Both the position numbers and the translations under genes were made by a program. Positions 19,847 to 25,836 of a stretch of DNA of 25,883 bases are shown here, piece by piece; positions within the stretch are counted from its first letter, which is position 1; every line of letters begins with the position of its first letter. The stretch lies in IMG/VR virus record IMGVR_UViG_3300035670_001133, positions 1 through 25,883 of that record. One strand, written 5' to 3'. This stretch comes from a virus. The notes beneath the pieces were generated by a model, which was given only the letters and a program-made list of their open reading frames with translations, was not told where the DNA came from and did no database searches.

Positions 19847-19880
19847 AAAAAAGCCCCCACTCCGGTTAGAGAGCAGGGGC
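19847..19880 (-). terminator. Intrinsic terminator after the major capsid gene
   Basis: The - strand RNA forms a ten-pair stem GCCCCUGCUC / GAGUGGGGGC (two G-U pairs) with an eight-base loop, followed by six U (19852-19847). It starts 15 bases after the capsid stop codon. A leaky terminator here would give more capsid mRNA than downstream neck and tail mRNA. That function is inferred; the structure is clear. Confidence 0.85.
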
Positions 19881-23688: not shown

Positions 23689-24935
23689 TAAGACCACCTT
23701 ACAGGCTGTTGAGCAAAATCGACCCTGCGCTTGATTGGCATCTTGCGGACAACAAAGTATCCTAGAGCATCATTCATGTGGTCAAATCCGCTAGATTTAT
23801 CAGGCTCACCGTTCTTGTCGTATGCTTGTTGCTCAAGACTTAGAGCAATGTTTGGGCACTTGTCAAGGTTGACGTAGTATAACCTTTGACCCTCGTTGTT
23901 GCAAAGTGCCATATTGACAGCGGCAATCCTATCGCGTACACGACCGTTTGCCTGCGGTGCGTTTATCGTAAAACCAGCGTTTTTCAGCAGTGTGATGTCA
24001 CTTTGAGCAGCATTTGTTGAGCTTGTTGATGCTCCACTTGCGTCAGGATAAACGATTATTGGATTTTCAGGATAACGAGATTTGATTATCTTGATAATCG
24101 CTGGAGTGTCTTGAACCTTGCTGATTTCGTCAACTGCAAAGGCTTTTCCATCACGCATAACGTGAATGGCAGCACTCATGTTGTTGACGTTAAAGTCCAT
24201 CCCAATATGCAGTGTTTCGTGGTTGTTTGCTGTAACCGATGACTTATTCAGGTCACGGTCAAAGTTAACGTAAACACTTCCAGACGTAAGGTTTACGAAC
24301 TCACCCTCAATGTAGGCATTAAGCAGGTTTGACGGGTAAGTCTCTCTCAGTGAGTCAACATAACCAGCAGGAAGGTGCTTGTTTGAGTATGTTGGCGCGC
24401 GGATTAGCTCGTAACTCTCAGTCGGATTTTTATACCACTTATCGTAAACAAAGCGAAATCCCTCTGGAGTCGTTCCAACAGCAACCGTGTTCTGCGTCCC
24501 ATCAGGCTTTTTCTGACGGTTACGGGCAATGATCTTGTTCCAGACCTCTGATGCTTTGCTTGCTGGCAGCGTGTCCAACTCGTCAACCATCGAATCCCCG
24601 ACCTCGTAACCCACAATCGTGTCTGGGTTTTCCATAGTCCTGAAGATGATTTGCTTATTGTTTACCCTTAGAACGTGCTCAGAACGGTTCAATTCATACG
24701 GAATCCCAAGATCATCTAGTGCTTCTTGGAATCTAGGGTAAGCAATTGTTCTAACCAAAGGGTAGTTTGGCAGGTAATAAGCCACATCACCGCCATTGCT
24801 GAAGATCAGGCGTAGTGTTCGCAGAACCAGGGCATGAGTCTTGCCAGCACCAAACCCTGCGACCATTGCAGGGAACTTGGCTTTACTGTTGACCAGCTTG
24901 GATTGCGGGTTAGTAGCTTTCGCCCGTATCTTCAT
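23688..24935 (-). CDS. terL: Terminase large subunit
   Basis: A 415-residue DNA-packaging motor: an ATPase followed by an RNase H-fold nuclease. Walker A is GFGAGKT (residues 27-33), Walker B ends in D118-E119 within VGDSMVDELD, and a coupling-type motif is VAVGTTPEG. Nuclease acidic residues are D247 in GMDFN, the Asp of VYPDASG near residue 300, and D389 in DHMNDALGY. The ATG at 24935 with GAGGTT upstream is preferred over a TTG at 24950. It overlaps terS by 26 bases. Together with portal and small subunit it forms the packaging machine. The cleavage type (cos or headful) cannot be decided here. Confidence 0.93.
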   Translation of the reverse strand: MKIRAKATNPQSKLVNSKAKFPAMVAGFGAGKTHALVLRTLRLIFSNGGDVAYYLPNYPLVRTIAYPRFQEALDDLGIPYELNRSEHVLRVNNKQIIFRTMENPDTIVGYEVGDSMVDELDTLPASKASEVWNKIIARNRQKKPDGTQNTVAVGTTPEGFRFVYDKWYKNPTESYELIRAPTYSNKHLPAGYVDSLRETYPSNLLNAYIEGEFVNLTSGSVYVNFDRDLNKSSVTANNHETLHIGMDFNVNNMSAAIHVMRDGKAFAVDEISKVQDTPAIIKIIKSRYPENPIIVYPDASGASTSSTNAAQSDITLLKNAGFTINAPQANGRVRDRIAAVNMALCNNEGQRLYYVNLDKCPNIALSLEQQAYDKNGEPDKSSGFDHMNDALGYFVVRKMPIKRRVDFAQQPVRWS

Positions 24936-25290
24936 CAGGTACAACCTCAAACTGCGTTACTGTGTGAGTCGAGATTGTTTGGGCTTTGTCTGCCTGTCCA
25001 AGCCATTGCTTGCCAAGCCAGATTTGCATGGGAACCGAGCCTTCTTGAGCTGATTGCCATTGAATACGTCTGAGGGATTGTTTACCAATTCCTGCATATT
25101 TTTTATAGAAGTCCGCAAAATTTGCAAAACCTCTGTCTTTTAGCCTTCGATCTAGCGTGTCTTCTGAGAATCCGAATATGCTGCAAATCTCATCTTGAGT
25201 GCAGCAAATCTTTGCCATTTCGGTAATTTTCTCGAAATCGGCATCAGTCAACTCAATCATTGGCCTACCGACTTTGTTATCTGTCGTCAT
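24910..25290 (-). CDS. terS: Terminase small subunit
   Basis: A protein of 126 residues from ATG 25290 (130 from ATG 25302). It recognises phage DNA and hands it to the large subunit. The N-terminal region GRPMIELTDADFEKITEMAK is followed by a helix-turn-helix (ICCTQDEICSIFGFSEDTLDRRL), then a helical oligomerisation part (LRRIQWQSAQEGSVPMQIWLGKQWLG). The WLGKQWLG segment is common in small terminases of this type. It is the first gene after the promoter/terminator region 25303-25416 and overlaps terL by 26 bases. Confidence 0.85.
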   Translation of the reverse strand: MTTDNKVGRPMIELTDADFEKITEMAKICCTQDEICSIFGFSEDTLDRRLKDRGFANFADFYKKYAGIGKQSLRRIQWQSAQEGSVPMQIWLGKQWLGQADKAQTISTHTVTQFEVVPDEDTGESY

Positions 25291-25322
25291 GATATTTCCC
25301 ATTGGAAACCCAAAGTAAAACC

Positions 25323-25350
25323 ATTATAGACAAAAAAAAGACCACCGCAA
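25323..25350 (-). promoter_or_regulatory. Putative promoter for terS and the late operon
   Basis: On the - strand a perfect TATAAT (25323-25328) follows TTGCGG (25345-25350) at a 16-base spacing, about 33 bases upstream of the terS start. The -35 lies in the loop and stem of the terminator at 25332-25359, so terminator folding and promoter occupy the same DNA. The -35 matches only three to four of six positions. Called from sequence only. Confidence 0.42.
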
Positions 25351-25359
25351 TGATGGTCT
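25332..25359 (-). terminator. Intrinsic terminator upstream of terS
   Basis: The - strand RNA folds AGACCAUC-AUUGC-GGUGGUCU (eight pairs, one G-U, five-base loop) followed by eight U. It is the strongest terminator shape in the window. It lies between the RusA gene and terS, so transcription of the late operon must either start after it or read through it. Confidence 0.85.
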
Positions 25360-25404
25360 AAGGGTCGTCGTGTGACCTAAGGAGAAAGCATCACGGGGAG
25401 TGAT
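25332..25404 (-). ncRNA. Candidate ~73-nt small RNA or antiterminated leader
   Basis: A promoter-like TATAAT at 25411-25416 would start RNA near 25404, and the terminator at 25332-25359 would end it, giving about 73 nt. The predicted RNA has a 5' hairpin (CATCAC-UCCCC-GUGAUG, 25389-25405), then a likely single-stranded stretch GCUUUCUCCUUAGG, then the terminator hairpin. The stretch GCUUUCUCCU is the exact ten-base complement of the ribosome-binding region AGGAGAAAGC of the gene at 245. This could be a regulatory RNA or a lambda 6S-like leader. There is no coding potential for a protein in it. Confidence 0.35.
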
Positions 25405-25410
25405 GTGCAA

Positions 25411-25439
25411 ATTATATCACGGCAATTCTTCCTTGACCA
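25411..25439 (-). promoter_or_regulatory. Putative promoter upstream of the leader RNA
   Basis: TGGTCA (25434-25439) and a perfect TATAAT (25411-25416) are 17 bases apart on the - strand. The -35 matches four of six positions and lies inside the 3' end of the RusA gene. GTGAT (25400-25404) and ATCAC (25415-25419) on the + strand flank the start region as an inverted repeat and could be an operator. Called from sequence only. Confidence 0.38.
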
Positions 25440-25836
25440 TGATTTGCACGAGACTTTCAGTGCCCCATACCTTTGTCACGTGCAAACTTGTAATCTGTGA
25501 GTCATCGCGGTAAACGATGCCGTTCATTGCATCCTCTATTCCCTTGGCGAGATTCGTGCAGTCAGGCTTCTTTGTATGCCTCTCAAAGCCATTTAAACAG
25601 GCCTCACGGCGTTTTTTTGAATAACTTTGAGGCACGGCAAAGGTAACGTGGATAAATAGGCTTACAGGCGTCTCCAAGGCTTCGCTGCTTCCCATTGCTT
25701 GTCTTGCAGCATCAGCAACCACTTTCTCGTAATCACGAGTCTTTGTTGGAGTGTATGCACGGCCTTGGCGTGTAAACCGTGGCCTTGCTTTCGGTACTGG
25801 TTCACCAAAAACCGTGAAAGTGACAATCATGGTCAT
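25417..25836 (-). CDS. rusA: RusA-like Holliday junction resolvase
   Basis: A 139-residue endonuclease of the RusA family that cuts branched DNA before packaging or during recombination. The N-terminal VPKARPRFTRQGRAYTPTKT and the catalytic region KKPDCTNLAKGIEDAMNGIV with YRDDSQI are typical. Asp92, Lys98 and Asp111/112 match E. coli D70, K76 and D91. The position of E. coli D72 is Thr94, a substitution that I recall in other phage members. The ATG at 25836 overlaps the stop of a gene entering from the right. It lies directly before the late control region, so it probably ends a middle operon. Confidence 0.88.
   Translation of the reverse strand: MTMIVTFTVFGEPVPKARPRFTRQGRAYTPTKTRDYEKVVADAARQAMGSSEALETPVSLFIHVTFAVPQSYSKKRREACLNGFERHTKKPDCTNLAKGIEDAMNGIVYRDDSQITSLHVTKVWGTESLVQIMVKEELP

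Follow-up and report, generated by a model that had tools for sequence, protein, structure and literature searches.

Here, we describe a junction between the early and the late genes of an uncultured phage, in which a promoter (P1), a structured leader, an intrinsic terminator and a second promoter (P2) follow each other in front of terS. The whole stretch of DNA analysed, called the window below, is an IMG/VR fragment (G000, 25.9 kb). A comparison of this gap across related phages, which an earlier note on this DNA had proposed and for which relatives were collected via TerS and TerL searches, finds the same order of elements, up to the first late gene, in about 25 contigs. The anatomy of the junction and its conservation can be read from the sequence itself, and from it we infer the start sites, the activity of P1 and P2 and any action of the RNA in trans. 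With about even confidence, we read the locus as a tandem-promoter junction in which the terminator would insulate P2 and P1 would give a stand-alone small RNA. P1, which sits in the final codons of the preceding early gene, would initiate a short structured RNA that stops at the strong terminator. The terminator would also block read-through from the early operon and hence keep the adjoining late promoter clear, and P2, right behind the U tract, would initiate the late mRNA at around 25316 with a small 5' hairpin. Most likely the P1 RNA would be the product itself, like lambda 6S or StxS, and not just a failed late transcript. Since the layout is conserved in about 25 relatives, this small RNA probably has a job, one that is so far undescribed.

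On the minus strand of the window, rusA, terS, terL and the portal gene are followed by further late genes as far as an endolysin-like one (3476-2940), and the left end of the plus strand has a convergent set of small genes. TerL is closest to Caulobacter phage DMCA and Salmonella SETP-type phages, with identities below 60%. Family matches of terS are weak, and its name comes from its position before terL and from its relatives. Translation of terS probably begins at the conserved ATG at 25290 and not at the listed start, 25302, because the upstream ATG runs into an in-frame stop in one relative (L101) and is absent from the leader of another (L174). Further down in the late operon, directly behind the gene 20728-19895, the presumed major capsid gene, lies a strong intrinsic terminator with 11 pairs and T6 (19852, minus strand). 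The promoter, the 5' hairpin, the terminator and the second TATAAT named in the earlier note are all found where it had placed them; hairpin B had been missed. The junction is composed of the following features:

25417-25836, minus strand: rusA, the last early gene upstream of the junction (PF05866, 6e-34; phrog_140, 2e-46)
25439-25434, minus strand: P1 -35 element TGGTCA, inside the 3' end of rusA
25411-25419, minus strand: P1 extended -10 element TGA-TATAAT (TATAAT at 25416-25411), 17 nt from the -35
25332-25404, minus strand: predicted P1 RNA of 73 nt, with putative start A25404 and end in the U tract
25390-25404, minus strand: hairpin A, ATCAC-TCCCC-GTGAT, at the predicted 5' end, with outer pairing CATCAC/GTGATG (25405-25389)
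25378-25389, minus strand: unpaired pyrimidine-rich stretch GCUUUCUCCUUA between hairpins A and B
25363-25377, minus strand: hairpin B, GGTC-ACACGAC-GACC, between the other two hairpins
25332-25359, minus strand: intrinsic terminator with an 8 bp stem (25359-25339), loop ATTGC and U8 (T8 at 25339-25332, the first T belonging to the stem)
25323-25328, minus strand: P2 -10 element TATAAT, directly behind the terminator
25302-25316, minus strand: predicted P2 start A25316, six nt after the -10, and small hairpin C (TTGG-GTTT-CCAA, 25313-25302)
24910-25302, minus strand: terS, the first late gene, likely start ATG 25290 with a conserved MTTDNKVG start

Crude counts over the window are not above chance, neither for promoter-like sites in a consensus scan (3 versus 2.4 expected) nor for terminator-like sites (4 versus 2.2 expected). 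The case for the promoters therefore rests on ranking and on the comparison with relatives. Scored with a sigma70 weight matrix, P1 comes 3rd and P2 12th among 25,847 minus-strand positions, and both rank high in most lineages. A TGn motif stands directly before the P1 -10, and this TGA doubles as the RusA stop codon. Across the relatives a -10 hexamer reaches into the ends of three upstream genes that are not homologous, covering their last codons in RusA-type, NinG-type and two HNH-type phages. The upstream gene is RusA in the window and L174, NinG in L002-L006 and in the junction-carrying contigs among L101-L117, and a DUF968-type HNH gene in L096, L097 and L100. NinG-type relatives have -35-like hexamers (TAGAC[AT] or TAGGC[AG]), likewise at a spacing of 17 nt; L096 and L097 have P1 without a clear -35, and in L100 P1 is absent. 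P1 falls within the top 20 promoter-like positions in most of the RusA- and NinG-type loci scored.

The weak -35 of the P2 promoter (TTGCGG) falls in the loop and 3' arm of the terminator, and the corresponding region in 11 lineages is the variable terminator stem. Across these 11 lineages the columns TA.AAT of the P2 -10 are invariant or shared by 10 of 11, and they are followed by exactly six variable bases, the discriminator, and then by a conserved ACTTTG or (T)ACTG. This pattern reads as that of a promoter with its start-site signature. Hairpin C occurs with the stems TTGG/CCAA, CTTC/GAAG, TTGT/ACAA and CTGT/ACAG; in the window the predicted fold favours another pairing. The terminator, whose stem is retained in relatives with two-sided changes, forms together with P2 the most uniform part of the junction, and under a strict criterion the minus strand of the window has just two intrinsic terminators, this one and that at 19852. 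The earlier note had offered as an alternative that the terminator closes the RusA operon and the second promoter serves terS, and this proposal is supported by the near-invariant P2 -10 and the conserved ACTTTG/ACTG start.

Setting the P1 start 7 nt after the -10 gives predicted RNAs of 73 nt in the window, 74 nt in L174, 71 nt in L082, 55-59 nt in the NinG type and 65-68 nt in the HNH type. The 73-nt RNA folds with -18.9 kcal/mol (z -2.7), and only 5 of 200 dinucleotide shuffles fold as well or better. On sequence evidence, it combines its own promoter, a stable fold and an intrinsic terminator, as expected of a phage small RNA of the 6S/StxS kind. The leader fold has one hairpin immediately before the terminator hairpin, to which the RusA type adds a 5'-terminal one. 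This hairpin A has counterparts in L174 (GTCAC-TTCCC-GTGAT) and L082 (AACTT-TCTCC-GAGTT) and is missing from the predicted NinG-type RNA. Only three phages show the form with three hairpins. The arms of hairpin B are complementary in all lineages, and each position is filled by several kinds of pair (28 of 28 cells paired, seven distinct arm pairs); in L174 the hairpin reads GATC-CACGAC-GATC, a compensatory change, and its loops vary between close NinG-type relatives. The unpaired stretch CUUUCUCCU or UUCUCCU is retained in RusA-type and most NinG-type leaders.

Trained on just the window and L174, a covariance model retrieves L082 (E 4e-8) and the NinG-type leaders (7e-5 to 0.14), and all these matches outrank the first chance-level hits. 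The leader is also present in eight contigs unseen in the terS search (L111-L114, L130, L132, L134 and L142); the junctions of L111 and L113 were examined together with their first gene, and the other six were located by the covariance model only. Among 20 aligned leaders 97.8% of the cells are paired, two-sided changes occur in 12 of 16 pairs and none of 500 shuffles is as good, in an alignment (A5) that is fitted to the covariance model and hence biased toward its structure. The hairpin A columns of A5 lie upstream of the predicted start in NinG-type leaders, and hairpin A of L082 was misaligned by MAFFT and aligned by the covariance model. The first late gene behind the junction varies, being terS, a ParB/methylase-like gene or, in L082, unrelated late genes. 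In L111 (3719-4888) and L113 (4379-5644) the ParB/methylase-like gene keeps the first terS codons (MTTMDKVG), as if it had been swapped in behind a shared start. L174 is itself a mosaic, its RusA and TerS being 62% and 71% identical to those of the window and its TerL only 31%. Loose motif scans of viral and genome contigs gave mostly chance matches, the real ones being L174/L234 and L082; L239 was discarded as a chance match to the P1 end. Model R2 gave 6 weak hits in 397 bacterial genomes from the order of G017, about the number expected by chance. Rfam covariance models found no match in the 984-base stretch, their sole hit being a chance, snoRNA-like one elsewhere in it, and a DNA search of the 984-bp region against annotated phages found none either.

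In L082, RusA is 97% identical to that of the window, and DNA identity breaks off immediately ahead of the P1 start. Exactly at the P1 start site, after rusA, L082 carries an HNH endonuclease gene with a structured leader of its own (374-994). Downstream of the HNH gene the leader reappears with its three-hairpin fold, a diverged terminator and late genes that are unrelated by TerL comparison. Hairpin B is identical to the window over 15 nt despite the divergence of the terminator sequence, and a promoter-like TTGTAC-17-TACACT stands at the expected P1 distance from the leader, ranking only 15th in 4.6 kb. The promoter-like site and the identical hairpin B behind the HNH gene suggest that promoter, leader and terminator are maintained together.

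A possible but rather doubtful explanation of the junction is lambda-like processive antitermination, in which P1 transcripts would end at the terminator unless a Q-, N- or put-like phage factor loaded at P1 or the leader RNA and took RNA polymerase into the late operon, and P2 would provide only basal transcription. The earlier note had compared the locus to lambda pR'-6S-tR', and as anatomy this likeness is sound, with a promoter-leader-terminator unit conserved directly ahead of the late genes and a genome layout that is lambda-like. Such a layout is evident in G415, which has apparently its whole non-structural region between endolysin and terL, with SSB, exonuclease and Erf leftward and a primosomal protein, a phrog_20828 protein, NinB, NinG and then the leader rightward; neither an integrase nor a repressor was recognised in its ORF list. 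Antitermination would also fit the RusA-type leader that stays with the early gene beside unrelated late genes in L082, like a cognate site, and the hairpin directly before the terminator could pause RNA polymerase or bind a factor. The Q-type logic drawn from the likeness, however, is not supported. No -10-like pause site (A2/T6, at least 4/6) was found within +1 to +23 of P1 in ten lineages, on the assumption of a start 7 nt after the -10. The P1 spacers of the window, L174 and L082 have by eye no common motif although the leader is shared; a diverged Q binding element (QBE) could escape such inspection. The search for an antitermination protein that the note had suggested found the Q families PF03589 and PF06530 neither in 20 records, most of them fragments, nor among the scanned early proteins of relatives, including G415; the positive control of the PF06323 profile was silent. 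In addition, the loops of hairpin B differ between close NinG-type relatives, and the conserved P2 beyond the terminator means that terS transcription needs no read-through. An unrelated antiterminator is possible, as L496 and its relatives encode several proteins of unknown function. One of them is the phrog_20828 protein of 155-175 aa, whose N terminus is rich in Lys and Arg; nine examined relatives encode it in their early region (L097:2291-2764, L108:2019-2495 and homologues). A regulatory role for it is unproven: AlphaFold predicts a helical bundle (pLDDT 78.5) without a confident PDB match. Of two complete phages with this protein one has a strong terminator unlike the junction and in the other none was found.

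We regard it as unlikely that the locus is a plain operon boundary, at which the terminator would end the early operon, P2 would serve terS, and P1 and the upstream hairpins would be functionless. The uniformity of P2 and the terminator and the weak or missing P1 -35 of some relatives agree with such a boundary. It does not account for hairpins A and B, which are dispensable for termination yet kept, with compensatory changes and beside varied neighbours, nor for the top-20 rank of P1 in most RusA- and NinG-type loci, nor for the promoter-like site that precedes the leader again after the HNH insertion of L082. A cis attenuator, in which the leader would sense a ligand, a host factor or pausing and switch the terminator off, is very improbable: the hairpin two to four nt before the terminator may resemble pause-hairpin attenuators, but no conserved alternative antiterminator pairing and no leader peptide were seen, the read-through RNA of the window keeps both hairpins and the terminator, and P2 bypasses the device.

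If the P1 RNA is a stand-alone product, it might act in trans as a new mobile phage small-RNA family of the early/late junction, which we consider a long shot. For example, the CUUUCUCCU stretch would bind ribosome binding sites (RBSs) of early genes and so turn expression from early to late genes. At 234-244 of the window (plus strand), the RBS that precedes the ATG at 245, AGGAGAAAGCA, is complementary without mismatch over 11 nt to the unpaired stretch of the leader, and 2 of 400 random tails are as good. The same AGGAGAAAGCA is also an RBS in G415 (L496 position 12924, minus strand), whose leader differs, and hence it may merely be a shared RBS motif. This pairing is the best target candidate, and a weak one after the G415 control.

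Lambda pR'-6S-tR' and phage 21 PR'-tR' likewise have a promoter before the late operon, a short RNA and an intrinsic terminator. In lambdoid phages such short terminated late-leader RNAs are usually taken as by-products of Q control. Q systems are characterised by a Q binding element between -35 and -10 and a -10-like sigma pause in the initially transcribed region (PMC6606751). Unlike the lambda and 21 systems, the window has a second conserved promoter past the terminator, and no QBE-like motif, pause -10 or known Q family was found in it or its relatives. HK022 put and lambda nut have small leader hairpins before a terminator and a pyrimidine-rich stretch beside a hairpin, and the window leader resembles them in both. 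It differs from put and nut in that it has by eye no boxA consensus, that hairpin B loops vary and that its second stem is the terminator. A phage small RNA of near-equal length is StxS, which reportedly arises by termination of a late transcript. StxS is a 74-nt sRNA of Shiga-toxin phages (PMC12197685). No sequence or target link was found between it and the window, whose late genes, in contrast, have their own promoter behind the terminator. There is a small chance that the P1 RNA represents a new class of regulatory RNA in phages. Provided that it is made, the product may here be the leader RNA itself, and the leader would mark a recombination joint for swapping early and late modules between phages. 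By this comparison the predicted RNA belongs to a known kind, the phage late-leader RNAs, and what appears to be new is that selection maintains it in phages where no Q is recognisable and the late genes have a promoter of their own past the terminator.
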